34,989 nucleotides of DNA from Rhodopseudomonas sp. BR0M22. GTDB taxonomy: Bacteria > Pseudomonadota > Alphaproteobacteria > Rhizobiales > Xanthobacteraceae. The notes beneath the pieces were generated by a model. The model saw only the letters and a list, made by a program, of their open reading frames with translations. It did no database searches and was not told where the DNA came from. The stretch is taken from the NCBI RefSeq assembly GCF_010907035.1, contig NZ_QUMK01000062.1, positions 1 through 34,989 of the forward strand. Direction: 5' to 3'. Made by a program: the position numbers and the translations under genes. Positions 16,239-33,939 of the stretch are shown here, in pieces (positions within the stretch are counted from its first letter, which is position 1; every line of letters begins with the position of its first letter).

Positions 16239-16275
16239 GAGCCCCCTTTGCGTCGTACCTCTGAGCCGCGCGCCG

Positions 16276-16926
16276 CTACAGCGCCTTGCGGAAGGTGAGA
16301 TTGATCCGCTGCCGACCGAGCAGCGGATGCTCGCCGTCCTTGAGCGTCAGCACGCCATGATACACCAGCCGTGACGGCCCGCCCCACACGAACACATCGC
16401 CGTGACGGAGCTCGTAGCGCCGCGGCTTGTCGCTGCGGGCCATGCCGCCGAACTGAAACGTCGCCGGCAGACCGAGCGACACCGACACGATCGGCGCCGA
16501 GAAATCGACTTCGTCCTTGTCCTGATGTAGCGCCATCTTGGCGCCGGGGACATAGCGGTTGATCAGGCAGGCGTCGGGATCGAAGCCGGCAAAGCCGGCC
16601 TCGGCGGCGGCGCGCTGCGCCAGATCGCGCAGCACCGCGGGCATCTCCGGCCACGGCGCCGCGCTGTCCGGATCGTTCGGTGAATAGCGATAGCCGCGGC
16701 GGTCGGTGACCCAGCCTGCGCTGCCGCAGCTCGTCATTGCCACGCTCATGGTGTGGCCGCCCGGCGTCATCATGTGGCGGAACGGCGCGCGCGCGACGAC
16801 GGCGTCGATCGCGGCGAGCACGTCATCCTCGTTGTCGCAGGCAAAGCCGCGCAGCAATGCCGCACCGGGCGCGATGTCCTCGCGGCGCGGCAGCGGCGGA
16901 TCGAGACTGTCGAACAGATCCGCCAT
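16276..16926 (-). CDS. alkB: AlkB, DNA/RNA demethylating dioxygenase
   Basis: A 216-residue protein, the same length as E. coli AlkB, of the Fe(II)/2-oxoglutarate dioxygenase family that oxidatively removes methyl groups from 1-methyladenine and 3-methylcytosine. The iron ligands are His134 and Asp136 (HQDKDE) and His190 (VYHG). The 2-oxoglutarate-binding arginines are in GRQRINLTFRK (Arg207, Arg213). NRYVPGAKMALHQD matches the family signature. The ATG at 16926 overlaps the stop of the preceding lysR (TGATG), with GGGGAG upstream, so translation is probably coupled. An ada gene, the usual partner, is not present. Confidence 0.93.
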   Translation of the reverse strand: MADLFDSLDPPLPRREDIAPGAALLRGFACDNEDDVLAAIDAVVARAPFRHMMTPGGHTMSVAMTSCGSAGWVTDRRGYRYSPNDPDSAAPWPEMPAVLRDLAQRAAAEAGFAGFDPDACLINRYVPGAKMALHQDKDEVDFSAPIVSVSLGLPATFQFGGMARSDKPRRYELRHGDVFVWGGPSRLVYHGVLTLKDGEHPLLGRQRINLTFRKAL

Positions 16927-17843
16927 CACGCGCTGCTCCCCTTCACATTGCCGCCGAACTGCCAGTCCGCCGTCTCCACCGCAAGATCGATGAAGGCGCG
17001 CACCTTGGCGGAGAGCAGCCGCGCGGTCGGATACACCATCGTGATCGGCAGCGGCGGCACCTCGTAGTCGGCGAGCACGATCTGCAGCCGCCCTGCCGCG
17101 ATCGCGTCGGCGGCCTGATAGGCCAGCACGCGTGCGAGCCCGCCGCCGCGTTCGGCATCGAGAATTGCGACATCGGCGACGTTGCTGACGAGGCGCGGCA
17201 CGCACGGCACCCGGACGTCACGGCCATCGACCACGAAGCGCCAGTCCACCGGCGCACCGGTCTGGCCGAAATGCACGATGTCGTGGGCAGCGATCTCGGC
17301 GGGGGTCGCCGGTACGCCGCGCGCCGCCAGATAGTCCGGCGACGCCACCACGATCCGCCGCATCGCACCGAGCTGCCGCGCCACCAGACTGGAATCCGAC
17401 AGGTGCCCGATCCGGACCGCGCAATCGACGCCGTCTTCAACCAGACTGATCATCAGATCGGACAGCCGCAGTTCGCCGGTCACCTCCGGATAGCGCCGCA
17501 GATAGTCCGACAGCAGCGGCGCGACATAGCGCCGGCCGAAGCCGACCGGCGCCGACACCACCAACCGGCCCGACGGCGTGACGCGCTCGGCCGCCGCCGA
17601 GGCGTCGGCCTCTTCGAGATCGGCGAGAATCCGCCGCACCCGCTCCAGATAGCGCGCGCCCGTGTCGGTGAGCGCGACCGAGCGCGTCGTCCGCTGCAGC
17701 AGCCGGGTGCCGAGCCGCTGCTCCAGCGCGGCAACCAGCCGCGTCACCGCCGACGGCGACATCCCGAGTTTGCGAGCAGCCGGCGCAAAGCCCTGCAGCT
17801 CGGCAACGGCGACGAAGGCGCTCATGGTGTCCAGACGATCCAT
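16926..17843 (-). CDS. LysR-family transcriptional regulator
   Basis: A 305-residue LysR protein. The HTH domain (residues 1-60, with AARKLGMSPSAVTRLVAALEQRLG) is followed by the linker helix and a C-terminal effector domain beginning PSGRLVVSAPVGFG, typical of the CrgA/AaeR-like group. It is first in a run with alkB and an MFS gene, and is divergent from a flavin split-barrel gene with 102 bp between the starts, the usual LysR arrangement. The divergent gene is therefore its most likely target (inference). The effector is unknown. Its stop overlaps the alkB start by one base. Confidence 0.9.
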   Translation of the reverse strand: MDRLDTMSAFVAVAELQGFAPAARKLGMSPSAVTRLVAALEQRLGTRLLQRTTRSVALTDTGARYLERVRRILADLEEADASAAAERVTPSGRLVVSAPVGFGRRYVAPLLSDYLRRYPEVTGELRLSDLMISLVEDGVDCAVRIGHLSDSSLVARQLGAMRRIVVASPDYLAARGVPATPAEIAAHDIVHFGQTGAPVDWRFVVDGRDVRVPCVPRLVSNVADVAILDAERGGGLARVLAYQAADAIAAGRLQIVLADYEVPPLPITMVYPTARLLSAKVRAFIDLAVETADWQFGGNVKGSSA

Positions 17844-17863
17844 GGCACTATTTCAAATGGCGC

Positions 17864-17893
17864 AACAATGAAGTGTCAAATCAACTGATTGTT
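17864..17893. promoter_or_regulatory. Dyads in the divergent lysR/flavoprotein region, candidate LysR site
   Basis: AACAAT (17864-17869) and ATTGTT (17888-17893) are inverted repeats; extending them outward gives one mismatch then a match. Inside them AATCA (17879-17883) and TGATT (17886-17890) form another dyad with a 2-bp spacer. LysR regulators usually bind such AT-rich dyads between divergent genes. The assignment rests on position and symmetry only. Confidence 0.4.
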
Positions 17894-17945
17894 CCACGCG
17901 ACACAAATAACGATTTATCCGGGAGACATCGAGCAGGAGGCTCCC

Positions 17946-18566
17946 ATGACCGAAGCCCAGCAAATCTCCAGCGACATCGCCTTCACCCCGGCCGTCAAGG
18001 CGATCCAGGCGCGCAAGGGATCGCGCGAGTCCTACGCCCGCGTCGAACGCAACGGCGGCTGGGCAACCACGATCGACGATGGCCTCGCCGCTTTCCTCGG
18101 CGCCCAGACCAGCGTGCTGCTCGCCACCGCCAGCGACGACGGGCAGCCCTATATCCAGCATCGCGGCGGGCCGGCCGGCTTCCTGCATGTGCTCGACCCG
18201 CACACCATCGGCTTCGCCGACTTCAAGGGCAATCAGCAGTTCATCACCCAGGGCAATCTCGCCGAGAACCCGAAAGCCTATCTGTTCGTGATCGATTACG
18301 CGCACCGCCGGCGTATCAAGATCTGGGGACGCGCCAAGGTGGTCGAAGACGATCCAGAGCTGATCGCCCGGCTGATGCCGAAGGGCTACAAGGCCCGCCC
18401 CGAACAGGCGATCCTGTTCGAGGTCGCGGCTTGGGACAGCAACTGCCCGCAGCACATCCCGCAGAAGTTCGATGCGGCCGATGTCGCCGCTGCGATCACC
18501 ACCCGCGACATCCGGATCGCCGAACTTGAGGCGCTGCTCGAAGCCGCCACCCAGGCGCAAAAATAA
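17946..18566 (+). CDS. Pyridoxamine 5'-phosphate oxidase family flavin split-barrel protein
   Basis: A 206-residue soluble protein of the FMN-binding split-barrel group. TSVLLATASDDGQPYIQHRGG and IGFADFKGNQQFITQGNL are characteristic, and RRRIKIWGRAKVVEDDPEL follows in the second half. These proteins bind FMN (or sometimes heme or F420 in other branches) and are annotated as PNPOx-like, but true pyridoxine oxidase activity is unlikely at this divergence. AGGAGG at 17935-17940 fixes the start at 17946; an earlier ATG at 17889 lacks a site. It is divergent from a LysR gene that probably regulates it. Confidence 0.87.
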   Translation: MTEAQQISSDIAFTPAVKAIQARKGSRESYARVERNGGWATTIDDGLAAFLGAQTSVLLATASDDGQPYIQHRGGPAGFLHVLDPHTIGFADFKGNQQFITQGNLAENPKAYLFVIDYAHRRRIKIWGRAKVVEDDPELIARLMPKGYKARPEQAILFEVAAWDSNCPQHIPQKFDAADVAAAITTRDIRIAELEALLEAATQAQK

Positions 18567-18583
18567 TCGACACGTTCGTGGGG

Positions 18584-18622
18584 CCCGCGCCGGCCGCCGG
18601 TTTCCCCTGCGACCGGCGCGGG
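18584..18622. terminator. GC-rich hairpin between two plus-strand genes
   Basis: CCCGCGCCGG (18584-18593) and CCGGCGCGGG (18613-18622) make a perfect 10-bp stem with a 19-base loop. It lies 18 bp after the flavoprotein stop and 13 bp before the next ATG. There is no T-run, so it may be an attenuating leader structure or a Rho-dependent end rather than an intrinsic terminator. Confidence 0.45.
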
Positions 18623-18635
18623 ATAAGAGTGGGCG

Positions 18636-19028
18636 ATGAGCGCCCTCGCCCCGATCGATGCAAACCCTTGCCAGAGCTGCGGCGCCTGCTGCGGCTATTC
18701 AGAGAACTGGCCGCGCTTCACGATCGAGGATGATTCCGCGCTCGACGCCATTCCAGCCGCACTGGTCAATGCGCGGCAATCGGGGATGCGCTGCGAGGCC
18801 GATCGCTGCGCCGCGCTGAGCGGAACGATCGGGCAAGCGACCGCGTGCACGATCTACGCCTTACGCCCTGAGGTTTGCCGCGACTGCCAGCCCGGCGACC
18901 CGGAATGCGCCATGGCGCGGCGCAAGTTCCGGCTGCCGCCGCTGCCGACCACTCTGGCCGAGGACGAGGCCGATCAGTGGGCGGCGTCCGGACCTTCGCC
19001 TTCGCCGAGTTCCAACTCCGACTCCTGA
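18636..19028 (+). CDS. YkgJ-type cysteine cluster protein
   Basis: A 130-residue protein with the CxxCxxCC signature near the N-terminus (Cys12, Cys15, Cys18, Cys19) and further cysteines at GMRCEADRC, TACTIY and the segment EVCRDCQPGDPEC. This pattern defines the YkgJ/UPF0153 family, thought to bind a metal or Fe-S cluster; the biochemical function is not settled. RPEVCRDC is a typical family motif. The C-terminus ends in a Ser/Pro-rich tail (GPSPSPSSNSDS) that lies in the region overlapping the convergent gene and may be a recent extension. A weak GAGTGGG precedes the ATG. Confidence 0.85.
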   Translation: MSALAPIDANPCQSCGACCGYSENWPRFTIEDDSALDAIPAALVNARQSGMRCEADRCAALSGTIGQATACTIYALRPEVCRDCQPGDPECAMARRKFRLPPLPTTLAEDEADQWAASGPSPSPSSNSDS

Positions 19029-19381
19029 TCGAGCGGTGCGAAGCTGGCGAGCGGTGCGGTCGACAGCGTGATCGCCTTGCGCTGCGAGTAACTGCTGATC
19101 GCCGGCCGGCGCGTTTCATGCGCCAAGGCGTACAGCACGGAACCGGCGCGCCCGCCGGCCTGGATCAGATCGCGCTCGTCGCAGCTCGCCGCCACGGCCA
19201 GGGCCAGCGGCTGCAGGTGAGCGCGGCGGTAGCAGAACAGCGCCAGCATCGCCCGGACGTCGCCCGACACGCTGTCGACGAGTTGCGGCAATCCATTCTC
19301 GTTGGCGCGATACATCTGGCCCAGCAGTTCCTCACGGACCGGGCAAGCGTCGTTCTCGAAGGCTTCACGGCTGGACCACAT
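18974..19381 (-). CDS. Small conserved hypothetical protein
   Basis: A 135-residue soluble protein that I recognise only as a type seen in the Bradyrhizobium/Rhodopseudomonas group. It has a compact helical look: EELLGQMYRANENGLPQLVDSV, then AMLALFCYRRAHLQPLALAVAASC, then an acidic tail (ESELELGEGEGPDAAH). No known motif is visible. GGGAG lies upstream of the ATG at 19381. The last 55 bp overlap the 3' end of the convergent YkgJ gene, and the acidic tail falls exactly in the overlap. Codon use supports it as real. Function unknown. Confidence 0.7.
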   Translation of the reverse strand: MWSSREAFENDACPVREELLGQMYRANENGLPQLVDSVSGDVRAMLALFCYRRAHLQPLALAVAASCDERDLIQAGGRAGSVLYALAHETRRPAISSYSQRKAITLSTAPLASFAPLDQESELELGEGEGPDAAH

Positions 19382-19627
19382 CGGCGTTCTCCCGAACAGG
19401 TGACGATCGCGAAGATGCGGCCGATTTTGTTAATGAGCTCTTAACTACACAACCTGATACCAGTACCAGCCCCTGCGTCCAGAGCATGGAACTAAACCTC
19501 GATCACGTTTTGCGACCACGGTGGTTTTCGTCGTGACGCCGCCATTTAATGGGTTAATGATCAAGGTGCCGCCTTCAAGCGGCTTGCGGTTCAGTACGTT
19601 GATTCATCTGGCTTGATGGAGAGTACC

Positions 19628-20011
19628 ATGACTGATCCGGTCACGTTGTTCCCCGATCTGATCCAGCCGGCGGCCAAAACTTACGCCCCGATGGGGATTA
19701 AATTCTGGGAGAGTGAGGAGACTGTCCTCGATAACATGAAGGAATTCGCCGACGGCTGGTTCGAACGTCGGCGGATTGGAACCCGCGCCGCCCTCGAGAC
19801 GGCCCGGCGGATCGGCGAAGCGAGCAGCCCTTTCGACGCCTTTCGTGAGTATCAGGATTGGTTGGGCGGTGCGATGGCGCGATTGCTCGAAGACGGCATG
19901 GCGTTCCAGCAGCAATTCATGAAGACGAACGCCAAACTGGCCCCGCATCCGCCGCAACGCGAGGAACCAGCCGAGGCTGGCACCATACCGGAGTCGCGGC
20001 TGAGCGCGTGA
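19628..20011 (+). CDS. Small phasin-like protein
   Basis: A 127-residue, probably all-helical protein with no membrane segment. The middle part (DNMKEFADGWFERRRIGTRAALETARRIGEASSPFDAFREYQDWL) is an amphipathic helical stretch like those of phasins, which coat polyhydroxyalkanoate granules. The tail is Pro/Glu-rich. GGAGAG sits seven bases before the ATG at 19628; an in-frame ATG five codons earlier has no site. The upstream 246-bp gap holds its promoter, which I could not locate. The phasin assignment is by resemblance and is tentative. Confidence 0.65.
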   Translation: MTDPVTLFPDLIQPAAKTYAPMGIKFWESEETVLDNMKEFADGWFERRRIGTRAALETARRIGEASSPFDAFREYQDWLGGAMARLLEDGMAFQQQFMKTNAKLAPHPPQREEPAEAGTIPESRLSA

Positions 20012-20083
20012 ACTCCAATCGCGACCGGGCTGAGCGCCGCACGCGGCCAACCGGGACGATCCTCATCAAGCGATCGCCGGTCA

Positions 20084-22300
20084 TCACAGGGTCGGCGACA
20101 GTTCGAGCGGGTCGACCACAGACAGGCTGAGTTCGACCCGATTGCGACCATTGAGTTTGGCGCGATATAGCGCGTTGTCGGCGCGCGCGACGAGGGTTTC
20201 GGCGTTGTCGCCCGGAAGCACCTGGGCAACGCCGAAACTGGCGGTGACGGTACCGACCTGTTCAAAGATCGTATGCGAGACCAGAAGCCGCAGTTTCTTG
20301 GCAGTTTCATAGGCTGCCTGGGCATCGGTGTCGGCGAGCAGCAGGGCGAATTCCTCACCGCCCCAACGAACCAGCAGATCAGAGCGCCGCACGCTGGCCG
20401 CCACCGTCTGCGACAGCCGGATCAAAACCTGATCGCCCATCGGGTGACCGTAGACGTCGTTGACCTCTTTGAAGTAATCGATATCGAAAATGATCAGCGA
20501 GAACACTTGGCCGCTGCGCTCCGAACGTGCCAGTTCGCTGTCCAGCCGCTCGTTGAATGTCATGCGATTGAACAAACCGGTGAGCGCGTCCGTCGCGGCC
20601 TGACGCGCAAGATCCCGCGACCGGAGTTGCAGTTCCTCATGGAGCTGGCGCTGCAGTCGGTCGCGCACGCCGCTGTCGAGCCCGAAGAAATAAAATAGCA
20701 CCGCGATCGCGACCTGCAGCGTGATGAAGATACCGAGCAGGCGACTCGCCATAATGCCCCGCACCGGAGCTGCTACAACCAAGGACGCCTGAGTGTCGGC
20801 GATCCGCTGGCGCAGTACGTAGCTGCGTCGCCCGCCGAAATCCATCCAGCCGCCGCCGAACACTTCGCGTGGAAGCATCGTGGGCCGTTGTGGTTCACTG
20901 AGCTGTTCGGCAAGACGGAGCAGAGGCAGGTCCGGGCGGGGCCACAACGTCCGCAGAAACTCGTCGCTTCGGTTGGTGATGATGACCACGCCGTTCCGAT
21001 CGAGAACGAAGAACGCCTGATCGAATCGGGTCATCGTCGCCGCCAGATCCTCGAGCGAAACCTCCAGCACTGCAACGCCCTCGATGGTGTCTTCGGCGGA
21101 GCGGATCGGATAAGCTGTCAGATACGTCCTGAGGCGTTCAGGCGCGTCGACACGGAATTCCCGAGCCGCGCGACCTTCGATCGCCTGGACGAACCACCCC
21201 ACCGCACTCAGGTTCGACTGACCGAGCCAGCCCTTCGCGGCACTGTTCGACGACAGCACGACATTGCCGGAACGGTCGACGATGGAGGCGCGCACCGGAC
21301 GAAGCGCGCCGACTTCGAGATCGAGCAGTTCGCGCATCGCTTCCGGCCCGCCGCTCCTGCCTTTGCCGAGCAGCGGTTGCACCGATGGCGAGTTTGCGAG
21401 CACTTTGACCAACGCATCGGCGATGGCGATCTCACGCTCGACGCTGCCGACCAACAGCACCGCGTCGCCGGCCACCTCACTTTCAGTGTCCTGACGGTGG
21501 ATCTCGCCGAGATAGTTGGTCAGCACCCAGCCCAGCAGCAGAACACCCAGCAAGCTCGTCAGCACGCCGATGAATTGCCGCTTCAGATGCCGCGAGTAGC
21601 CCGGATAGTCGAGCGTCTGCATCACCCGGCGGCCCCAGGCCGTCCAGGCCAGCGCCGCCAGCATTACCGCGAGCAGCCCGCGCACGAGCTGGATCGGAAC
21701 GCCCGTGAGCCGCTGGAAGTTTTCCTGATTGACGATGTCGGCCGGCCAGAACGGCGCCGGCGCGACGATCACCCCGGCCGCCAGACCATAGCCGATGAAG
21801 CCGGCTGCAACCGCGGCCATCAGCCATCGCCCGGACTCCGGGTAATCGGCACGAAGCGAGTACAGCGCAAAGCCGACCGCGATCGCTCCCGGGGCGGCGA
21901 GCAGATAACGTGCGACCGCCTTGGCGGACCACACGCCGTCCAGCACGCCAACCGCAACAATCACCAGCAGGACCGGAATGAAGATCCACGGCCCGGGCAC
22001 CGGCAGACCACGCGACTGCAAGCCTTGCCGGCCAGCCTCGGCCAACAGCACGAACGACGCCGTCATCAGCACCCCGCGCGCGAGCAGAAACTCGCTGGCA
22101 TCGCCGGCCAGCAGAGCGCTCATATCGAGCCATTCGCTGGCGCCGTGGACACATCCGAACAGCCCAGTCAGACGGATCAGAGGACGGTGATCGTCGTCGA
22201 GCCTGCGCGCGAATGCCAAACACAACGCACCCAGCAGCATGAATGCCAGCCCGTAGAAGAAGAAGATGAAGTCGAGCTGGGATTCGAGATAACGTGCCAT
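20084..22300 (-). CDS. Membrane-bound diguanylate cyclase with periplasmic sensor
   Basis: This 738-residue protein probably makes cyclic di-GMP. Residues 10-225 hold about seven membrane segments. A further helix at 244-264 leads into a periplasmic region (265-512) of Cache-like character, with SIVDRSGNVVLSSNS and FVLDRNGVVIITN as two PAS/Cache-type strand pairs. A helix at 518-540 and a linker precede the GGDEF domain (568-730). The active site is GGEEF (647-651) and the inhibitory site RxxD is intact (Arg638-Asp641), five residues upstream. No EAL domain is present. The start at 22300 begins directly before the first membrane helix; the Shine-Dalgarno is weak, so a longer GTG start at 22384 remains possible. 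Confidence 0.92.
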   Translation of the reverse strand: MARYLESQLDFIFFFYGLAFMLLGALCLAFARRLDDDHRPLIRLTGLFGCVHGASEWLDMSALLAGDASEFLLARGVLMTASFVLLAEAGRQGLQSRGLPVPGPWIFIPVLLVIVAVGVLDGVWSAKAVARYLLAAPGAIAVGFALYSLRADYPESGRWLMAAVAAGFIGYGLAAGVIVAPAPFWPADIVNQENFQRLTGVPIQLVRGLLAVMLAALAWTAWGRRVMQTLDYPGYSRHLKRQFIGVLTSLLGVLLLGWVLTNYLGEIHRQDTESEVAGDAVLLVGSVEREIAIADALVKVLANSPSVQPLLGKGRSGGPEAMRELLDLEVGALRPVRASIVDRSGNVVLSSNSAAKGWLGQSNLSAVGWFVQAIEGRAAREFRVDAPERLRTYLTAYPIRSAEDTIEGVAVLEVSLEDLAATMTRFDQAFFVLDRNGVVIITNRSDEFLRTLWPRPDLPLLRLAEQLSEPQRPTMLPREVFGGGWMDFGGRRSYVLRQRIADTQASLVVAAPVRGIMASRLLGIFITLQVAIAVLFYFFGLDSGVRDRLQRQLHEELQLRSRDLARQAATDALTGLFNRMTFNERLDSELARSERSGQVFSLIIFDIDYFKEVNDVYGHPMGDQVLIRLSQTVAASVRRSDLLVRWGGEEFALLLADTDAQAAYETAKKLRLLVSHTIFEQVGTVTASFGVAQVLPGDNAETLVARADNALYRAKLNGRNRVELSLSVVDPLELSPTL

Positions 22301-22594
22301 GAGATCTGGACTTGCCGCTCCTTCCGCCACGGCTTCGCGCGGCCAACCTCGCCTGTTGATTGACGCGAAACTAGTCGATCGCACGTCATGCAGCGGTTAA
22401 TGCGCCACCGCGTACAACTACGTGCGCGACCAAACAGCCCAGCGATCGTGGCGCTATTGAAGATGATCGTAAGCTTTCCGTGGACAACAAGCCGCAAAAC
22501 TACGGCGAAACCCACCACAGGTTGCAGCAACCACCGAAATAACCCGCAATGCAGCGGTGTATCCGGCTGGACGCGCGCGATCAGAAGCCGACGA

Positions 22595-22999
22595 TCAAAG
22601 GTTGGCGGCGAGCACGATCGACAGACCGAAACCGGTCAGATGATGCAGCGCCTGGTCGGTTCCAATGAGCCACCAGAACCAGATATCCTGATTAGTCACG
22701 TCGAAGGTCGCGACGATAAAGCCCTTAAGGCGATCGATGGCGAGGTGAATCAGGAAATCGATCGGGCCGATGAACCAGAACTGCGGCGCCAGGATCAGCA
22801 TCAGCAGCGTCGTCATCACCAGGTGCACGCTGCAATGCGCAAGCAACGGCAGCGCCCAGCCAGTCTTGGCGTCCTTGCCCATCGCCATCCACTTGTTCTG
22901 GAAAATGAAGTCCGCGAACACATGTTTGACGGTGAGGAGCAGCATCCAATAGATCAGCGCTCCGACGGCAATCGACGACGACAGATCGGGAAGGATCAA
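22595..22999 (-). CDS. DUF3307 membrane protein
   Basis: A 134-residue membrane protein. The KHVFADFIFQNKWMAMGKD stretch, followed by LLAHCSVHLVMTTLLML and FLIHLAIDRLKG, matches the DUF3307 family (HxxxDFxxQ and later HxxxH/IDxxK motifs), whose function is unknown. Three or four hydrophobic segments are visible. I place the start at the TTG at 22999, eight bases after AAGG, because the longer frame to 23095 is Arg/Cys-rich and unlike a membrane protein start; this is uncertain. The flanking gaps (22301-22594 and 23000-23246) show no other gene or clear signal. Confidence 0.75.
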   Translation of the reverse strand: MILPDLSSSIAVGALIYWMLLLTVKHVFADFIFQNKWMAMGKDAKTGWALPLLAHCSVHLVMTTLLMLILAPQFWFIGPIDFLIHLAIDRLKGFIVATFDVTNQDIWFWWLIGTDQALHHLTGFGLSIVLAANL

Positions 23000-23246
23000 G
23001 CTCGCACCTTCGCTTCGGCTCGGCAGGCAGTGAAGGCGACGACAGCCGGCTTGCGGCCATTCGATCGTCCGACGTCCCGCACGAACGCATCGCAACGACG
23101 CCGGCCGGGATCGGCCAGCGCGTTTTTATGACATTTCCGGCGACCGAATGCACGCGGCGGACGGTGCGCCTGGTTGCCGAGCCTGTGAACTTCCCACGCC
23201 GCACCCGTCGCACACGACGATACCGGCAAGCCCTGCACGGCGACTC

Positions 23247-24131
23247 TCACGACGCCGCCGCCTGCGTCGCTGCGGCTCCGGACCGCGCCCGAATTGCGTC
23301 GATCGCGCGCTTCAGCTTGGTCTGCTTGCGTTCCGGCAGGGCGGCAGCGCGCGCATCCGCGATCGCCTGGGTCAACTCGGGCAGCTCCAAGCTGCCGTTG
23401 AGCGCCGGCTTCACCAAGGAATCGATGATCAGCGTCCAGTTCGCCATGCCATAGCGATAGCCGTCGCCATAGCCGCGAACCATGGTGGCGCTTTCGATCA
23501 CGGCGAAGGCCGCTTCCGGACGAACGGCCAGGCTGCGGTCGATCATGTGCAGCCAGCGCTCGACCCATCTGCTTTCCTGGGCGTAACGGATCGACAGCAG
23601 CCGCCAACGCCGCAGCCAGGAGATGATCCGCAGCTTACGGGTGCCGAGCCATCCGGCGGCGTTGAAGCGCATCTTCACCGGCATGTGCTGCCAGCCTAGA
23701 TAGTCCAGCACCTTGAGCGTCGGAGCGGCCACCACCACCGGCAGCGCCGCCACCACCTCGTCGATGCGGAAACGACATCTGCGGTCGATCCGCGGCTTCG
23801 CCCGGCCAGCAGGAGCGCTCGCCGCCTCCTGCAGCGTGAGCTGCGCAATCCGGATCGGGTCCTCGTAGGCCATCCGCATCGCCAGCAGCTCGGCGATCCG
23901 CAGCAACATCACGTCGTCGATGTCGCGGCGACCGACGAACCGCAACAACCGGTCGAGATACAACCGCGCGTAGCGGCGGCCCTGGTAGATCACCAGCCGC
24001 GCGGCCGCCTCCTCCAGGGCCTGCGCCACCGGTTGCGACACCTGAGCCGGGGCCGTCAGCACTACCACGCGATCGTTCTCGCCGAGCATTTCAGCGAGCG
24101 TGACACGAAGCGCGTCGATATAATCGGCCAC
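23247..24131 (-). CDS. Free-standing IorB C-terminal-like domain (DUF6537-type)
   Basis: A 294-residue soluble protein that resembles only the C-terminal part of indolepyruvate ferredoxin oxidoreductase subunit beta. The diagnostic stretches are LVIYQGRRYARLYLDRL, LRIAELLAMRMAYEDPIRIAQL, LDYLGWQHMPVKMRF and VRGYGDGYRYGMANW. The IorB catalytic region (pyruvate oxidoreductase gamma-type domain) is absent, so it cannot be a complete oxidoreductase. The GTG start at 24131 is chosen because GAGGA, eight bases upstream, overlaps the stop codon of the preceding cNMP-binding gene (10 bp between the genes), a typical coupled arrangement. The reading frame is intact. Function unknown; a regulatory or scaffolding role with its partner is speculation. 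Confidence 0.75.
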   Translation of the reverse strand: MADYIDALRVTLAEMLGENDRVVVLTAPAQVSQPVAQALEEAAARLVIYQGRRYARLYLDRLLRFVGRRDIDDVMLLRIAELLAMRMAYEDPIRIAQLTLQEAASAPAGRAKPRIDRRCRFRIDEVVAALPVVVAAPTLKVLDYLGWQHMPVKMRFNAAGWLGTRKLRIISWLRRWRLLSIRYAQESRWVERWLHMIDRSLAVRPEAAFAVIESATMVRGYGDGYRYGMANWTLIIDSLVKPALNGSLELPELTQAIADARAAALPERKQTKLKRAIDAIRARSGAAATQAAAS

Positions 24132-24141
24132 GTCGACGTCC

Positions 24142-24816
24142 TCAGCCGGTTCGGCCGACGACGTCGGTCCGCGGCGGCTGCGTGGTCTCGGCCAGCCTCG
24201 CCTGCAGTGACTCGATGTTCTCGAACAGCCGGGCACTGGCGAGCCGCAGGAAGTAGAAGCCGAATTCCGGATTCTGCACGTACAGCTCTTCGACCTGGCG
24301 ATAGCTCACGCTCAGCACCATCCCTGATTCGACGCATTCCAGCGTCTGCGTTCTGGTGTGGGTCGGCGACAGCATCCCGAGCTCGCCGACGATCGCGCCG
24401 ATCGGCAGCTCGATGCCGGATTCGACCAGCCGAAACCGGCCGCTGACGATGTAGAACATCTCCTCGGCCCGCTCGTCCTTGTAGAACAGTTCCTCACCGG
24501 CGACGCAGTTGCGTTTGGTCATGAACGGCTTCAGCCAATCCATCGACAGGTCGCTGCTGACCGATTTCTTCACATCGCGCACGAGCTGCAGCATCTGGTG
24601 CAGACGCCAGGCGTTGAGCGGCAGCAGCACCGCATGCAGCGCGAGTGTCGCGTAGTTATGAGTCGGGATCGACACTGCGATCAGCAGCGCATTGGTGAGG
24701 ATGCCGAACACCCGCAGGGGAATCATCGTCCGCATCGTGGCGGTGGCGAGCACGAAGATGGTCGCGAACACGCTGCTCGCCATGCCGGCATTCTGGGCGA
24801 TGAGAGACATATCCAT
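24142..24816 (-). CDS. Popeye-like cyclic-nucleotide-binding membrane protein
   Basis: A 224-residue protein with three predicted membrane helices (residues 9-27, 33-50, 54-72) followed by a cytoplasmic cyclic-nucleotide-binding domain (about 88-200). The phosphate-binding cassette is GELGMLSPTHTRTQT (144-158), with Arg155 as the likely phosphate contact. There is no DNA-binding HTH, so it is not a CRP-type regulator. The three-helix plus cNMP layout, and HAVLLPLNAWRL at the end of helix 3, resemble the Popeye-domain proteins of animals and their bacterial relatives. The start at 24816 follows GGTGGG. It is upstream of, and probably coupled to, the IorB-like gene. Whether it binds cAMP or cGMP is not known. 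Confidence 0.82.
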   Translation of the reverse strand: MDMSLIAQNAGMASSVFATIFVLATATMRTMIPLRVFGILTNALLIAVSIPTHNYATLALHAVLLPLNAWRLHQMLQLVRDVKKSVSSDLSMDWLKPFMTKRNCVAGEELFYKDERAEEMFYIVSGRFRLVESGIELPIGAIVGELGMLSPTHTRTQTLECVESGMVLSVSYRQVEELYVQNPEFGFYFLRLASARLFENIESLQARLAETTQPPRTDVVGRTG

Positions 24817-25120
24817 GTGGGACCCACCGTTGCTTGCGATCGAAGGCGACGAATCCAGCGGACACGGCCGAGGCACTGCTGCGAGCCGTCGCCGGACGCC
24901 GCGGAGCGTTACACGCTGGTGCGGACGGAATTATAAACCAGCCGCAGCGACTTACGCGAGCCGTGCTGTCCTTGCCAAGCACCGGCGAGTTGACGGCCAA
25001 CCGCTCGCCGGGCAGTTTGCCCCGCCGCTTTCCCCGTCCGCCGCCGCCCCCGCTGCGGCCTTTTGCAGGGTCGGCGCCCGATCCGGCAGCCGCCCGCTTC
25101 AATCTCAGGAGATTTTGCCG
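24817..25120. other. Divergent intergenic region without a recognisable gene
   Basis: This 304-bp region separates the start of the minus-strand cNMP gene from the start of the plus-strand crotonase gene, so it should hold two promoters. A TTGACG at 24990-24995 could be a -35 for the crotonase gene, but no good -10 follows. AGGAG at 25107-25111 is the crotonase ribosome binding site. The right part is very GC-rich and shows no gene. Confidence 0.4.
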
Positions 25121-25903
25121 ATGACCGACAGCGAACCCGCGAGCCCGCCGGTGCTGACCGTCGACGGTGCGCGCGCCACCATCCGGCTGAACCGACCCAA
25201 GCATCTCAATCGGCTGCAGCCGGACGATCTCGCCGTCCTGCTCGATCAGTTCGCACGAATCGACGCCGATCCCGCGGTGCGAGTGCTGGTACTCACCGGC
25301 ACCGGGCGGGCATTCTCGGCCGGCTTCGATCTCGGCGAGGTCGCCGAGCGCGCCACAGCCGAGGTCGAGGCCGAATCCCCGGGGTCGGCGTTCGAGGTCG
25401 TGGTCAACCGGCTGGAGGATCTGCGGGTGCCGACGATCTGCCGGCTCAACGGCGGCGTCTATGGCGGCTCGACCGATCTGGCGCTCGCCTGCGATTTCCG
25501 CATCGGCGTCGACACCGCAGAGATGTTCATGCCGGCGGCAAGGCTCGGGCTGCATTACTATCCGGGCGGCATCAAGCGTTACGTCTCCCGCCTCGGCATC
25601 GACAATGCCAAGCGGCTGTTCCTCACCGCGCAGCGGATCGACTCCGCCGAGATGCTGCGGATCGGTTATCTCACCGCGATGGTACCGATGGACCGGCTCG
25701 ACCGCGAAGTCGACGCCTTGGCGACGACGCTGGCCGGCAACGCGCCGAACGCGGTCGCCGGCATGAAGCGCGCCATCAACGAATTCGCCCGCGCCGCCTT
25801 CGACGAAAAAGCCGCCGACACCCGCGCCCGCGCCTCGATGCGCAGCGACGAGATCAAGGAAGGCATCGCGGCGTTTACGGAAAAGCGCGCGCCGAGGTTT
25901 TGA
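25121..25903 (+). CDS. Crotonase-family protein (enoyl-CoA hydratase/isomerase-like), atypical active site
   Basis: A 260-residue crotonase with the CoA-binding segments TGTGRAFSAGFDLGEV and RLNGGVYGGSTDLALACDF. The two catalytic glutamates of true enoyl-CoA hydratase are not where expected: the first position holds Asp (GGSTDLAL) and the second falls in LGLHYYPGGIKRYV, where no Glu is present. It may therefore catalyse isomerisation, hydrolysis or dehalogenation-type chemistry rather than hydration. AGGAG at 25107-25111 supports the ATG at 25121. It is convergent with the nitroreductase, with a pair of repeat copies between them, and is probably monocistronic. Substrate unknown. Confidence 0.82.
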   Translation: MTDSEPASPPVLTVDGARATIRLNRPKHLNRLQPDDLAVLLDQFARIDADPAVRVLVLTGTGRAFSAGFDLGEVAERATAEVEAESPGSAFEVVVNRLEDLRVPTICRLNGGVYGGSTDLALACDFRIGVDTAEMFMPAARLGLHYYPGGIKRYVSRLGIDNAKRLFLTAQRIDSAEMLRIGYLTAMVPMDRLDREVDALATTLAGNAPNAVAGMKRAINEFARAAFDEKAADTRARASMRSDEIKEGIAAFTEKRAPRF

Positions 25904-25930
25904 AGGCCACGCATCGCAGCCTCTCCGTCT

Positions 25931-26058
25931 TCATTCCGGGGCGCGAAGCCTATCCGCGAGTCATTCCGGGGCGCCGCGAAGCGGCGAACCCGGAATCTCC
26001 GGCGCTGTGCAAACATCAGATTCCGGGTTCGCGCAAACGCGCGCCCCGGAATGACTCG
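25931..26058. repeat. Palindromic interspersed repeat, family 2 (copy C, with a partial copy in front)
   Basis: A full element (25957-26058) starts CGAGTCATTCCGGGGCG and ends CCCCGGAATGACTCG; its inner arms read GAACCCGGAATC and GATTCCGGGTTC around a short centre. A partial copy of the left end (TCATTCCGGGGCGCGAAG, 25931-25948) precedes it. The element lies between convergent genes and could act as a bidirectional transcript end, but this is inference. Confidence 0.85.
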
Positions 26059-26069
26059 TTGAGAAGCCG

Positions 26070-26768
26070 TTACTTGTCCACGAACGTCGCGACCTCGCCG
26101 AGTGCGGCACGGTTGGTACGATACGAGTTCGCCTTGTGGTCGGGATCGGCGTAGCCGAACGAGATGCCGCAGACGACGCGGCGGTCGTCGCCGAGGCCGA
26201 AGTGGTTGCGGACCACACCGGCGTGAAACGCCAGCGCGGCCTGCGGCACCGTGGCGACGCCGAGCGCCTGGGCGGCGAGCATGAACGAGGTGACATAGCC
26301 GCCGCAATCGACCGCGCCATAGACGCCGAGCGCCTCGTCGGTGGTGATGATCGCCACATGCGGCGCGCCGAAGAAGTTGAAATTCTGCAGCGCCTGCTGG
26401 GCGGCCGCGGCCTTGTCGCCGCGGGCGATACCGACCGCGTTGTAGAGCTGGAAGCCGCTCTCGCGGCGGCGATCGAGATAGACCCCGCGATACTCGCGCG
26501 GAAACTCGAAATCGCCCGACATCGGCGCGCCGCCGGCGGCAGCCGGATAGATCACCTCGCGAAACTTCGCCGTCGCAGCGCCCGAAGTGATCACCACCTG
26601 CCACGGCTGGCTGTTGCACCACGACGCGGTCTTCTGCGCCGCGCCGAGGATGCGCTCGATGGTTTCGCGCGGCACCGGATCGGCTTTGAACGCCCGGCAG
26701 GAATAGCGCGCGGCCATCAGCTGTTCGAGGACGTCGATCGGAGCGGTGGTCGTGGGCGCGTCGGTCAT
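26070..26768 (-). CDS. FMN-dependent nitroreductase family protein
   Basis: A 232-residue protein of the nitroreductase/NfnB type, which uses NAD(P)H and FMN to reduce nitro compounds, quinones or other acceptors. The N-terminal RYSCRAFKADPVPRETIERIL is the family hallmark with the FMN-phosphate arginines, followed by TASWCNSQPWQVVI. Later motifs are VDCGGYVTSFMLAAQALGVATVPQAAL and GISFGYADPDH. GAGG lies upstream of the ATG at 26768. It is the last gene of the minus-strand catabolic series but is separated from the acyl-CoA dehydrogenase by a repeat, so co-transcription is uncertain. Confidence 0.9.
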   Translation of the reverse strand: MTDAPTTTAPIDVLEQLMAARYSCRAFKADPVPRETIERILGAAQKTASWCNSQPWQVVITSGAATAKFREVIYPAAAGGAPMSGDFEFPREYRGVYLDRRRESGFQLYNAVGIARGDKAAAAQQALQNFNFFGAPHVAIITTDEALGVYGAVDCGGYVTSFMLAAQALGVATVPQAALAFHAGVVRNHFGLGDDRRVVCGISFGYADPDHKANSYRTNRAALGEVATFVDK

Positions 26769-26790
26769 GATGGCCTCATTCCTGAATGGT

Positions 26791-26914
26791 CGTCATTCCG
26801 GGGCGCTCACGAAGTGAGCGAACCCGGAATCTGCAACGCGCGGGGCGCAGGCTCGAGTGCAAACAAGCTCGGGATTCCGGATTCGCGAGCTCTCGCTCGC
26901 GCCCCGGAATGACG
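26791..26914. repeat. Palindromic interspersed repeat, family 2 (copy D)
   Basis: The element begins CGTCATTCCGGGGCGCTCAC and ends CGCGCCCCGGAATGACG, with inner arms GAACCCGGAATC and GGATTCCGGATTCGC and a longer, unrelated centre. It fills most of the gap between the acyl-CoA dehydrogenase stop (26935) and the nitroreductase start (26768), just upstream of the nitroreductase binding site. Confidence 0.85.
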
Positions 26915-26934
26915 GCCCGTGGTTGATGATCGCC

Positions 26935-28179
26935 TCACCGCCCCTTGGTCGGGATTTTGTTGAACGGTACGTCCTTGTCGACCCGGATGTCACCAGGCAG
27001 GCCGAGGACGCGTTCGGCGATGATGTTGCGCAGGATCTCGTCGGTGCCGCCGGCGATGCGCATTGAGGGCGAACCGAGCAGCATCGCCTGGAAGCTGCCG
27101 CCGGCTTCGGCCTCGGCCGGATCGGTGAACACGCCCGCCGCGCCTTCCAGATCCATCGCGAACGCCGCGATGTCCTGCAGCATCGGGCCGGCGACCAGCT
27201 TGCCGATCGAGTTCTCTGGTCCAGGGCGCTGGCCCTTGGACAGCGCCGAGATTGAGCGATACGAGGTGTACTTCAGGCCGCTGGCCTTCACCGCCCAGTT
27301 CGCCAGCTTGCTGCGCACCGCCGGATCGTCGATCGCCGAGCCGTTCTCCGTCACCAGATCGTTGCAGAACGCGAAGATTTCCGGGAAGCCGGTGGCAAGC
27401 CGCGCGCCGATCGACATGCGCTCGTTCATCAGCGTGGTCAGCGACACGTTCCAGCCGTCGCCGACTTCGCCGAGCCGCTGGCTGTCCGGAATCCGCACGT
27501 TGGTGAAGAACACCTCGTTGAATTCCTGCATGCCGTTGGCCTGCTTGATCGGCTTCACCTCGACGCCGGGGCTCTTCATGTCCAGGAAGAACATGGTGAG
27601 GCCCTTGTGCTTCGGCACATTGGGATCGGTACGGGTGATCAGCAGGCCGTAGTCCGAGTAGTGCGCGCCGGAGGTCCAGATCTTCTGGCCGTTGATGATC
27701 CAGTCGTCGCCGTCCTTCTCGGCGCGGGTGCGCAGACCCGCGACGTCGGAGCCGCCGGCCGGCTCGGAGAACAGCTGGCACCAGATCTCTTCGCCGGAGG
27801 CGAGCTTCGGCAAATAGCGGCGCTTATGCTCCTCGGCACCGTAGGCCATCACGGTCGGGCCGCACATGCCCTCGCCGATCTGGAACGGCTGGGTGAGCTT
27901 GCCGTAGACGCCCTCTTCCTGCTGCCAGATCACCTTCTCGATCGGGGTAGCGCCGCGGCCGCCATATTCGCTCGGCCAAGTCAGGCAGGCCCAGCCGCCC
28001 TCGGCCTTCTTCTTCTGCCACGCCTTGCCGACTTCGACGATGTCGGCGTTCTTCAGGCTGATGCGGCCGAGACCGGACTTGGTCAGTTCCTGTTCGTACT
28101 GCTTCGGCGCGTTGGCATCGATCCACGCGCGAGCCTTGGCGCGGAACTCGGCTTCCTGCGGGGTATCGTCGAAATTCAT
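26935..28179 (-). CDS. Acyl-CoA dehydrogenase, large-subunit type (paralogue 1)
   Basis: A 414-residue flavoprotein that introduces an alpha,beta double bond into an acyl-CoA. FAD- and substrate-binding signatures are clear: QLFSEPAGGSDVAGL (from residue 135), NGQKIWTSGAHYSDYG, and the C-terminal GGTDEILRNIIAERVLGLPGD. The position used for the catalytic Glu in medium-chain enzymes (YEGT) is Gly here (IAGGT), while Glu253 in LMNERMSIG aligns with the alternative catalytic Glu of isovaleryl-CoA dehydrogenase-like enzymes. It is a close paralogue of the next gene upstream: 42 differences in the first 260 residues by hand count, no gaps. GAGAGG precedes the ATG. Confidence 0.9.
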   Translation of the reverse strand: MNFDDTPQEAEFRAKARAWIDANAPKQYEQELTKSGLGRISLKNADIVEVGKAWQKKKAEGGWACLTWPSEYGGRGATPIEKVIWQQEEGVYGKLTQPFQIGEGMCGPTVMAYGAEEHKRRYLPKLASGEEIWCQLFSEPAGGSDVAGLRTRAEKDGDDWIINGQKIWTSGAHYSDYGLLITRTDPNVPKHKGLTMFFLDMKSPGVEVKPIKQANGMQEFNEVFFTNVRIPDSQRLGEVGDGWNVSLTTLMNERMSIGARLATGFPEIFAFCNDLVTENGSAIDDPAVRSKLANWAVKASGLKYTSYRSISALSKGQRPGPENSIGKLVAGPMLQDIAAFAMDLEGAAGVFTDPAEAEAGGSFQAMLLGSPSMRIAGGTDEILRNIIAERVLGLPGDIRVDKDVPFNKIPTKGR

Positions 28180-28277
28180 CTCAGCCTCTCGTCACTTTGT
28201 TCTTGTCTCGGCCCCTCAGGATCAGGAGCGCGCAGCGCGCGCGTCGCGAACCATGAGACTAGTTTCGTTCGCAATTC

Positions 28278-28358
28278 GTAGGATGGGTTGAGCTGTCGCG
28301 AAACCCATCAATCACTTGCTGCTGGCCGATGGGTTTCGCTGCGCTCAACCCATCCTAC
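28278..28358. repeat. Long imperfect hairpin repeat, family 3 (copy F)
   Basis: GTAGGATGGGTTGAGC (28278-28293) pairs perfectly with GCTCAACCCATCCTAC (28343-28358), and inside it GCGAAACCCATC (28298-28309) pairs with GATGGGTTTCGC (28328-28339). This is a widespread type of dispersed repeat in alphaproteobacteria and other proteobacteria. It lies in the 186-bp gap between the two paralogous acyl-CoA dehydrogenase genes, 8 bp downstream of the 3' end of the second one. Confidence 0.88.
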
Positions 28359-28365
28359 AATCTTG

Positions 28366-29613
28366 TTACGCCCGCCCCTTGGTCGGGATCTGGTTGAACG
28401 GCACGTCCTTGTCGACGCGGATGTCGCCGGGCAGGCCGAGCACGCGTTCGGCGATGATGTTACGCAGAATCTCGTCGGTGCCGCCTTCGACCCGGGTCGC
28501 CGGTGAACGCAGCAGCATCGCCTGGAAACGGCCGGCGACTTCGGCATCCTCCGACCCGCTGAGTACGCCGGCGGCGCCCTGCAGATCGAGCGCGTACATC
28601 GCAACTTCCTGGATCATGCTGCCCGCGACCAGCTTGCCGATCGAGTTCTCCGGGCCCGGACGCTGGCCCTTCGACAGCGCCGAGATCGACCGGAACGAGG
28701 TGTAGCGCAGGCCGCTGGCCTTCACCGCCCAGTTCGCCAGCTTGCTCCGCACCGCGCGGTCGTCGAGCGCCGGCGTGCCGTCGAGCGTCAGCGACGAACA
28801 ATAATCGAACAGCTCCGGGAAACCGGTCGCGACGTTGGCGCCGATCGACATGCGCTCGTTCATCAGCGTCGTCAGCGACACGTTCCAGCCGTCGCCGACC
28901 GCGCCGAGGCGCTGGCTGTCCGGAATCCGCACGTTGGTGAAGTACACCTCGTTGAAGTCGGAATTGCCGTTGGCCTGCTTGATCGGCCGCACCTCGACGC
29001 CGGGGCTCTTCATGTCGAGGAAGAACATCGTCAGACCCTTGTGCTTGGGCACGGTCGGGTCGGTGCGGGTTATCAGGATGCCGTAATCCGAGTAGTGCGC
29101 GCCCGAGGTCCAGATCTTCTGGCCGTTGATGACCCAGTCGTCGCCATCCTTCTCGGCGCGGGTGCGCAGACCCGCGACGTCGGAGCCGCCGGCGGGTTCG
29201 GAGAACAGCTGGCACCACACCTTTTCGCCGGAGCCGAGCGGCGGCAGGTAGTGCCGCTTCTGCTCTTCCGAGGCGTAGGCCATCATGGTCGGCCCGCACA
29301 TGCCCTGGCCGATGATGAACATCGCCGTCAGCTTGCCGAACACGCCCTCTTCCTGCTGCCAGATCACGCGCTCGATCGGCGACGCGCCGCGGCCGCCATA
29401 TTCCTTCGGCCAGTGCGGCACGGCCCAGCCGGCATCGGCCTTCTTCTTCTGCCAGGCCTTGGCGACCTCGAGAATATTGGCGCCCTTCAGCACGACACGG
29501 CCGAGCGACGCCTTGCGCAGCTCGTCCTCGTATTGCTTCGGCGCGTTGGCGTCGATCCAGGCGCGCGCTTTGGCGCGGAATTCGGCTTCCTGCGGAGTAT
29601 CGTCGAAGTTCAT
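28366..29613 (-). CDS. Acyl-CoA dehydrogenase, large-subunit type (paralogue 2)
   Basis: A 415-residue acyl-CoA dehydrogenase with the same motifs as its neighbour: QLFSEPAGGSDVAGL, NGQKIWTSGAHYSDYG, Glu253 in LMNERMSIG as likely catalytic base, and GGTDEILRNIIAERVLGLPGD near the end. It differs from paralogue 1 mainly in the 31-100 region, the 261-282 region and the end of helix region 335-365, which could change substrate choice. The start is the ATG at 29613 (AGGTG upstream). The frame continues upstream for 21 codons into repeat copy B, giving a false MLRRFAPRND N-terminus that should be rejected. A tandem gene duplication produced this pair. Confidence 0.9.
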   Translation of the reverse strand: MNFDDTPQEAEFRAKARAWIDANAPKQYEDELRKASLGRVVLKGANILEVAKAWQKKKADAGWAVPHWPKEYGGRGASPIERVIWQQEEGVFGKLTAMFIIGQGMCGPTMMAYASEEQKRHYLPPLGSGEKVWCQLFSEPAGGSDVAGLRTRAEKDGDDWVINGQKIWTSGAHYSDYGILITRTDPTVPKHKGLTMFFLDMKSPGVEVRPIKQANGNSDFNEVYFTNVRIPDSQRLGAVGDGWNVSLTTLMNERMSIGANVATGFPELFDYCSSLTLDGTPALDDRAVRSKLANWAVKASGLRYTSFRSISALSKGQRPGPENSIGKLVAGSMIQEVAMYALDLQGAAGVLSGSEDAEVAGRFQAMLLRSPATRVEGGTDEILRNIIAERVLGLPGDIRVDKDVPFNQIPTKGRA

Positions 29614-29645
29614 GGCACACCTGCTATCGATGCGTTCAATTTTTC

Positions 29646-29728
29646 CGTCATTGCGAGGAGCGAAGCGACGAAGCAATCCAGCTCAGTGCACGGAGCCTCT
29701 GGATTGCTTCGCTGCGCTCGCAATGACG
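29646..29728. repeat. Palindromic interspersed repeat, family 1 (copy B)
   Basis: The element starts CGTCATTGCGAGGAGCGAAG and ends GCTGCGCTCGCAATGACG. The arms flank GAAGCAATCCAG / CTGGATTGCTTC. It is the same family as 128-203 in inverted orientation, and occupies most of the gap between the small and large acyl-CoA dehydrogenase genes. Confidence 0.88.
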
Positions 29729-29750
29729 GTTGGGCATTCACCGTCGCGCG

Positions 29751-30878
29751 TTACGCCGCGTTCTTCTGGCGCATCCGGTCGATCAGCTGATCTTCCCAAT
29801 ACGATTGGCTGCCGAGGCTGAGCGCCAGCGCGTTGGCGCGGCGATAGTACAGATGGCAGTCGAACTCCCAGGTGAAGCCCATGCCGCCGTGCACCTGGAT
29901 GTTCTGCTTGGCGCAGTGCTGGAACGCCTGAGTGGCGCTGATCCGCGCCGAGGCCGCGGCCTCCGGCAGCTCGGCGGCGTCGGTCGAGAGCGCCCACGCA
30001 CCGTAGTAGGAGTTCGAGCGCGCCAGCGTCGCCGAGACGTACATGTCGGCGAGGATGTGCTTGATCGCCTGGAACGATCCGATCTGCCGGCCAAAGGCGA
30101 TGCGGTCGAGCGCGTAGTCGCGGCCCATCTCCAGCGCGCGGTCGGCGCCGCCGACCTGTTCGAACGCGATCAGCACCGCGGCGCGGTCCATCACGCGCGA
30201 CAGGATGCTCCAGCCTTCATTGGCCGCACCGAGCGGCTCGGCCTTGGCGCCGGCAAACGTCAGCTCGGCCTGCTGCCGCGACGGATCGACGTTCTGCAAC
30301 GCCTTGGCGGTGACGCCGCCGGCCTTCAGATCGACCAGGAACAGCGACACATCGGTCTCGCGGCCGCTGTTGCCGGTGCGCGCCGCGACGATCGCGAAGT
30401 CGGCGATCGCGCCGTCGGCGACCGGCTTCTTGGTGCCGGTGAGCGTGCCGTTCGACACCGCGAGCTTGACGGCTGCCGGCGACGGATTGCCGGTGCCTTC
30501 GAACAGCGCCAGCGTGCCGATCGCTTCCCCTGAGGAAATCTTCGGCAGCCACTTCTGCTTCTGCTCTTCCGAACCGGCCAGTAGCAGCGCTTCGGCGGCC
30601 AGATACACGGTCGACGAGAACGGCACCGGCGCCAGCACGCGGCCGAGCTCCTCGGCGATCACGCAAAGTTCGAGGTGCCCCGCACCGGTCCCGCCGTATT
30701 CCTCCGGAATCGCCACGCCGAGGAAGCCCATCTCGGCGAGCCCCTTCCACAGGTCGCGGTCGTAATCCGCCTTGCCTTCGAGCACGGCACGCACCGCCTT
30801 CGGCTGGCACTTCTCGGCAAGAAACCGCCGCGCCTGATCGCGCAGTTGCTTCTGATCGTCGGAGAAATCGAAATTCAT
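29751..30878 (-). CDS. Acyl-CoA dehydrogenase, small-subunit type
   Basis: A 375-residue acyl-CoA dehydrogenase-fold protein of the PimD/FadE-like small-subunit type. The fold is shown by LAEMGFLGVAIPEEYGG, VIAEELGRVLAPVPF, the Arg-rich FGRQIGSFQAIKHILADMY and QVHGGMGFTWEFDCHLYYRRA. The usual AGGSD flavin motif is degenerate, and both catalytic Glu positions are missing: Asp231 (VMDRAAVLIA) replaces the Glu of the large paralogues, and no YEGT-like Glu follows. This fits a partner subunit of a heteromeric (alpha2beta2-type) dehydrogenase, as seen in pimelate and steroid catabolism. The start at 30878 has only a weak site. Confidence 0.88.
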   Translation of the reverse strand: MNFDFSDDQKQLRDQARRFLAEKCQPKAVRAVLEGKADYDRDLWKGLAEMGFLGVAIPEEYGGTGAGHLELCVIAEELGRVLAPVPFSSTVYLAAEALLLAGSEEQKQKWLPKISSGEAIGTLALFEGTGNPSPAAVKLAVSNGTLTGTKKPVADGAIADFAIVAARTGNSGRETDVSLFLVDLKAGGVTAKALQNVDPSRQQAELTFAGAKAEPLGAANEGWSILSRVMDRAAVLIAFEQVGGADRALEMGRDYALDRIAFGRQIGSFQAIKHILADMYVSATLARSNSYYGAWALSTDAAELPEAAASARISATQAFQHCAKQNIQVHGGMGFTWEFDCHLYYRRANALALSLGSQSYWEDQLIDRMRQKNAA

Positions 30879-30924
30879 GGGCGGAGTCCCGTTGTTGTTA
30901 GGTGTTGGTCTTGAATGTTGTCGC

Positions 30925-31006
30925 CGTCATTCCGAGGCTCGCCGGCAGGCGAGAACCCGGAATCTCGAGATTCCGGGTTCGCGCTGCGCGCGCCCCGGAA
31001 TGACGG
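30925..31006. repeat. Palindromic interspersed repeat, family 2 (copy E)
   Basis: The element starts CCGTCATTCCGAGGCTCG and ends GCCCCGGAATGACGG. Its centre (30953-30980) is a perfect 28-bp palindrome built from GAACCCGGAATCTC and its reverse complement, with no spacer. It occupies the gap between the ligase stop (31026) and the small dehydrogenase start (30878). Confidence 0.88.
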
Positions 31007-31025
31007 AGAGTTAAGTTCGCATCGC

Positions 31026-32900: not shown

Positions 32901-32949
32901 GTCTTCGTCTCCCGTCTTTTCGGCCTCTTGCCGGGCCGACGTTATCTGG

Positions 32950-33756: not shown

Positions 33757-33939
33757 GCCGTCACTCCCGTCAGTTCTTGTTCTTATACGCCGCTGCCGCG
33801 ACGTTTAGTCGGATCGCCGTTCCGGCGATAGTCGCTCCCCTCCCAAATACAGGGAAAGAAACAGTCCTGCGCGCTTCGAATTCCGCCGCGCGAGAGATCG
33901 TCAATATCTGGCGAACTACACGCGGCGGAGAACGAAGAC

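Follow-up and report, generated by a model that had tools for sequence, protein, structure and literature searches.

Among the cAMP and cGMP receptors known from bacteria, transcription factors of the Crp-Fnr type are the most prevalent, according to the accessible part of one account (PMC10127613). Membrane-bound receptors are represented by the Popeye (POPDC) proteins, for which the available text of a further source gives DSPE and FQVT as the motifs of the binding pocket (PMC6562197). In Pycsar, as set out in the accessible portion of its description, a cyclase (PycC) acts with a receptor that contains a cyclic-nucleotide-binding (CNB) domain, PycTM or PycTIR (PMC11224242). A fourth point of comparison comes from metabolism: indolepyruvate oxidoreductases of the IorB type (PRK08312) and the fused type (PRK13030) carry a C-terminal DUF6537, a domain that no paper found in our literature search mentions by name. 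Here we describe a pair of adjoining genes, P1 and P2, that shares features with each of these systems. The pair lies in a stretch of 34,989 nucleotides from Rhodopseudomonas sp. BR0M22, the whole of which is referred to as the window (Table 1).

Table 1. Features of the P1-P2 locus and of related proteins. Positions refer to the window unless a locus is given; aa, amino acids.
Feature	Position	Strand	Remarks
P1 gene	24142..24816	minus	ATG 24816, TGA 24144-24142; 224 aa; membrane-anchored CNB protein (predicted anchor)
P1 hydrophobic N-terminal part	24568..24816	minus	aa about 1-83; predicted membrane helices, third weak
P1 CNB domain	24274..24513	minus	aa 102-181; PF00027
P1 phosphate-binding cassette	24346..24387	minus	aa 144-157, with Glu145 and Arg155
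P1-P2 junction	24129..24144	minus	P1 TGA, overlapping GAGG resembling a ribosome site, P2 GTG
P2 gene	23247..24131	minus	GTG 24131, stop 23249-23247; 294 aa; free-standing DUF6537
DUF6537 core of P2	23421..24026	minus	aa 36-237; PF20169
DUF3307 protein	22595..23035	minus	PF11750, 40.4 bits; start provisional
CNB-MCP proteins	L254:7817-9295; L255:7811-9292; L256:7054-8532		three genomes of another alphaproteobacterial family, f37

P1 resembles Popeye proteins in its predicted layout of membrane helices followed by a cytosolic cyclic-nucleotide domain, with no enzyme domain, and to this extent the label "Popeye-like" of the initial annotation is apt. It does not extend to family membership: P1 gave no match to PF04831 at E up to 0.1 (hmmscan), neither of the two motifs given in the available Popeye text occurs as a string in its sequence, and it carries a CRP-type cassette instead. 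The cyclic-nucleotide domain that follows the hydrophobic N-terminus is borne out by a match to PF00027 of 36.5 bits (cut-off 27.5; hmmscan) and by the conserved cassette. In the alignment the latter reads Gly-Glu-Leu-Gly ... Arg with the spacing found in CRP, and G144, E145 and R155 are identical in all 108 P1 homologues examined (41/41 paired with P2, 67/67 unpaired). A second set of P1 residues, T27, F37, S85, V86, Y112, M148 and V180, is invariant where P1 is paired with P2 and seldom seen in the unpaired homologues. When the AF2 model of P1, which is of modest confidence, was searched with Foldseek, CRP-cAMP was the top match (E 4e-8); by sequence, the PDB entry closest to P1 is PycTIR, matched in its CNB domain (E 6e-7). 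These features support a canonical CRP-type cassette and predicted cyclic-nucleotide binding. In contrast to CRP/CAP, P1 begins with a hydrophobic stretch and matches no DNA-binding domain.

Hydropathy (Kyte-Doolittle) places clear peaks at aa 10-28 and 32-50 of P1 and a weak third at 45-63 or 58-76, and the best 19-residue window reaches at least 1.6 in 80/80 named P1 orthologues. Of the three helices proposed earlier, two are thus well marked and the third is faint; three predicted membrane helices remain likely. The AF2 model has a mean pLDDT of 66 and is of low confidence in aa 1-30. Protein searches found P1 and P2 once each in their own genome.

The second protein had been described as an IorB-like domain, and this description can be made more precise: P2 is a free-standing DUF6537 (117 bits against PF20169, cut-off 27), a domain that forms the C-terminal part of indolepyruvate oxidoreductases of the IorB type, and it lacks the POR domain of the enzyme. 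Its alignment to PRK08312, an NCBIfam model of 514 aa (indolepyruvate oxidoreductase beta), covers residues 247-510 and scores 95.9 bits, far under the full-length cut-off of 348. For comparison, POR spans 15-203 and DUF6537 spans 241-446 in the IorB of locus L266. P2 is thus homologous to the C-terminal part of IorB and of the fused enzyme and unlike both in adjoining P1 in the sample. In a profile scan it had no match to POR (PF01558) or TPP domains; therefore it cannot be the enzyme. The AF2 model of P2 is mostly helical (mean pLDDT 89, pTM 0.84), and its fold has no informative structural match in the PDB, hence gives no clue to activity. A segment at aa 126-144 is as hydrophobic as the first segment of P1; because this level is reached by few P2 orthologues (8/80), as against all those of P1 (80/80), we read P2 as probably soluble.

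Many P2 residues are shared with 19 IorB tails, namely Q50, Y54, Y58, R61, R86, M87, D91, Q97, E125, R177, R182, E186, W193, G220 and G222, and this set suggests that an old binding function of DUF6537 survives in P2. Other fixed positions are specific to P2 and unlike the IorB tails (R9, R155, H195, D198 and K241); these may form the contact with P1.

The initial annotation placed the two genes 10 bp apart, with the binding site of the second over the stop of the first, and both details are correct. P2 lies downstream with 10 nt between the P1 stop and its GTG, and a GAGG at 24143-24140 shares bases with the TGA of P1 and is separated from the GTG by 8 nt. An alternative, longer reading of P2 begins at an in-frame start at 24236, inside P1. 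To compare junctions, we placed the start of P2 at the first start codon found in frame at or after -4 nt, relative to the P1 stop, which excludes earlier starts. Under this rule the start falls between -4 and +33 nt in 37/37 loci, where no second in-frame start was seen back to -60. The start is equally tight in 80/80 named loci (the best 80 of 254 confirmed P1 relatives), 27 of which have an extra in-frame start upstream, inside P1, the nearest at -44. No P1-P2 fusion was seen among the 37 and 80 junctions read; the P1 stop comes before P2 or just into it. The tightness of these junctions supports the translational coupling proposed earlier, which we grade as probable.

The pairing of the two genes was assessed in 149 genomes of the window's family, its own included, which were searched with P1 and P2. 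We used the 110 P1 matches with E up to 3e-29 and set aside a further 21 that were weaker and for the most part partial; the 110 correspond to 109 loci, as two close neighbours on one contig share L093. Every P1 orthologue of at least 60% identity (41/41, own included) has P2 just downstream on the same strand, whereas none of the 69 homologues below 60% has an adjoining P2, a difference that puts the pairing far beyond chance. The genera concerned number 11 and contribute 47 genomes to the sample, of which 41 carry the pair. P2 is present also at L066 and L184, where a frame overlaps it, and at L075 (genome G106) it is split over two open frames. Likewise, P2 adjoins P1 in all of the best 80 of 254 confirmed P1 relatives; these named loci, from Rhodopseudomonas, Bradyrhizobium, Nitrobacter and Tardiphaga and from metagenome assemblies, coincide in part with the 41 genomes and do not amount to an independent sample. 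Conservation of the gene pair, which had been put forward as a check, therefore favours the pairing.

Short DUF6537 frames without P1 were considered as candidates for a lone P2. L282 and L284-L287 proved to be truncations at contig ends, and L283 an IorB lying in several frames; in this last case (genome G056, about 2098-3581) the IorB gene occupies three frames and is decayed or mis-sequenced. Among 289 alphaproteobacterial genomes, the window's own and 288 others, P1-like genes occur in 8/288 at E up to 1e-15 and P2-like matches in 38/288. The latter comprise 44 rows outside the family, from a scoring of at most 8 candidates per genome, and every one lies in a frame 490 aa or longer, the length to be expected if these are IorB-type proteins; frame length was the criterion here. 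Within this sample, free-standing DUF6537 is limited to the family and tracks P1.

The paired P1 proteins form one side of one branch (SH-aLRT 99, quick search) in a tree of 113 rows, made up of 108 family loci, one locus having been omitted as too short, and five from outside the family. Similarly, 37 P2 proteins are separated by one branch from the 19 IorB tails (SH-aLRT 100, quick search). Both trees fit a single gain of P2 followed by joint inheritance with P1. Mean pairwise identity is 47% for P2 against 73% for P1; P2 thus diverges faster, and this does not speak for a tight complex.

The pair stays together while its flanks differ, in several gene neighbourhoods. In the window and its nearest relatives it is flanked by genes for acyl-CoA dehydrogenases, a nitroreductase and an enoyl-CoA hydratase, and in the g20 loci by other genes. 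Most g26 loci have a secretion-type ABC gene, an HlyD-like gene, a CHASE2 cyclase and a metallo-beta-lactamase-fold gene around the pair (the names ABC and HlyD were taken from sequence, without a profile). A cyclase lies directly upstream of the pair in g45, and a CNB channel near it in g43 and g17. Some gene rows recur with members of the P1 family: secretion-type ABC, HlyD-like, CHASE2 adenylate cyclase and metallo-beta-lactamase-fold genes lead up to a P1-family gene at L078, L198, L213, L217 and L218, as does this row at L209, with an intervening channel gene, and at L204, where the ABC gene is not in view. At L220, L221 and L223, distant P1 homologues stand between a GroEL gene (c24, named from sequence) and a c20 gene.

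Cyclases are frequent around the P1 family as a whole. Of the 109 loci, 27 have a class III cyclase no more than 5 kb away, against 1.8 expected from the cyclase count of each genome (Poisson-binomial tail 9e-25, uncorrected for ancestry; 13 genera), an expectation that is slightly low owing to seven genomes with at least 20 cyclases. Divided by pairing, the figures are 10/41 paired loci (0.8 expected) and 17/68 unpaired loci (1.0 expected), leaving 31/41 paired loci with no cyclase within 5 kb. Such enzymes are numerous in many of these bacteria. A strong match to the P1 family occurs in 85 genomes, and all of these have a cyclase except one, which is 80% complete. A profile built from the neighbouring class III cyclases found none at 16001-33800 of the window. 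The neighbouring enzyme often joins CHASE2 to the cyclase domain and is accompanied by a metallo-beta-lactamase-fold gene on the same strand (Pfam on one example). The cyclase of L069 has the Lys and Asp usual for ATP-using class III enzymes, which favours cAMP as the ligand.

A gene that combines an ion channel with a CNB domain occurs within about 1.1 kb in 14/109 loci (6 paired and 8 unpaired, uncorrected for ancestry); Ion_trans and CNB domains were confirmed by Pfam on three examples. At E up to 1e-15, channels of this kind number one to three per genome and are found in 70/149 genomes.

A related arrangement is seen at L254-L256. The section of the P1 profile that runs from about position 55 to the end of the CNB domain matches the N-terminal part of proteins of 492-493 aa that end in a methyl-accepting chemotaxis protein (MCP) signalling domain (MCPsignal; Pfam on two of three), and the hydrophobic N-terminal residues, outside the profile match, are similar in character. 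The products themselves are predicted intracellular cyclic-nucleotide chemoreceptors. In contrast to the pair described here, where a separate gene follows, their output is fused in one protein. Because the output region directly follows the CNB domain in these proteins, and the P2 gene holds that place here, P2 can be read as the output.

A DUF3307 gene (identified by Pfam on the copies of the window and of L085) follows P2 on the same strand in 32/41 paired loci. Of the nine loci without it, one is at a contig edge and the other eight are all of the g17 and g26 loci. It also stands divergently beside an unpaired P1 in 5/68 loci. The DUF3307 protein is a possible third member of the system and a good candidate partner.

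Our best reading, which we consider reasonably probable, is a system of two parts at the inner membrane, in which P1 and P2 together respond to a cyclic nucleotide. The initial annotation had proposed a system of this kind; the proposal has been strengthened by the constant pairing, the canonical cassette and the clustering with cyclases and CNB channels, and has lost its connection to the Popeye family. P1 would be the receptor, anchored by its hydrophobic helices, with a predicted cytosolic CRP-type CNB domain that binds a cyclic nucleotide, most likely cAMP, supplied by one of the class III cyclases of the cell. P2, probably made beside P1 by coupled translation, would be a detached output, derived from the tail of an oxidoreductase of the IorB type with loss of the catalytic parts; in this scheme it would touch P1, receive the signal from it, and be held or switched once the ligand binds. 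The likeliest guess for its action is the binding of a metabolite or of a metabolic protein. A more specific version, in which the borrowed 2-oxoacid oxidoreductase tail serves a membrane cAMP receptor as output and P2 still binds whatever metabolite or protein DUF6537 binds within the enzyme, is tentative, and we would not expect it to hold. Under this version the pair would integrate second-messenger signalling with how aromatic 2-oxoacid metabolism stands, and DUF6537 would gain its first known function.

The same observations can be accommodated in other ways. P1 could act alone in cyclic-nucleotide signalling, with P2 an unrelated protein on a shared transcript whose dosage must equal that of P1. 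The faster evolution of P2 fits such an arrangement, as do the distant P1 homologues, which manage without an adjoining P2 in every one of the 69 cases; however, co-occurrence in the sample is perfect even though the neighbourhood has changed several times, and none of the frames checked was an intact free-standing P2 without P1, and we regard this explanation as rather unlikely. P2 could also be a decoy or regulatory subunit of indolepyruvate oxidoreductase that mimics the DUF6537 tail and is held or released by P1 through cyclic nucleotide. Among the matches listed, at least one further PF20169 match occurs in 38/41 paired genomes; that of the window's genome is a fused oxidoreductase, a 1233-aa frame with TPP, POR and DUF6537. 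The core residues retained from IorB tails (e.g., Q50, Y58, R61, R86, M87, D91, W193 and G220) would suit a mimic as well. Against this, genomes G106, G112 and G139 (each 99% complete) have the pair and a single PF20169 match among the matches listed, and therefore P2 seems not to need a DUF6537-bearing oxidoreductase; moreover, P2 has fixed positions of its own. This role is unlikely in our estimation.

Least probable, and in our view very unlikely, is a Pycsar-like anti-phage pair, in which P1 would be a PycTM-type membrane effector opened by cyclic nucleotide and P2 an accessory or immunity protein. The logic of a cyclase with a CNB membrane receptor is alike in broad plan, the CNB domain of PycTIR is the best PDB match of P1 as given above, and the CHASE2 cyclase of L069 matches PycC models. 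Four PADLOC models, none of them named PycTM, match P1. The TIR-effector, PycTIR and PycC models match it in the CNB part only. Furthermore, the searched part of the window is without a cyclase, P2 is an extra partner, and the distribution of the pair over most sampled genomes of its 11 genera is that of one inherited group, whereas defence loci are patchy.

If the two-part system that we favour is correct, cyclic nucleotides would have a signalling route other than transcription in Rhodopseudomonas, Bradyrhizobium, Nitrobacter and Tardiphaga. The P1 family would then be membrane-bound receptors whose gene order connects them with cyclases and CNB channels, here with a fixed second protein. 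The pair would also give access to DUF6537 and DUF3307, both of them domains of unknown function.

Two further observations concern the surroundings. Downstream of the DUF3307 gene, the minus strand of the window encodes a 766-aa protein (20084-22384) with a GGDEF diguanylate cyclase domain and a Cache match below the cut-off, homologues of which lie near the pair in some relatives. Finally, the string APRND appears eight times in the six-frame translation of the window, often in similar surroundings (plus strand at 188, 8006, 26041, 26899 and 30990; minus strand at 25960, 26792 and 29647), which suggests a dispersed repeat.
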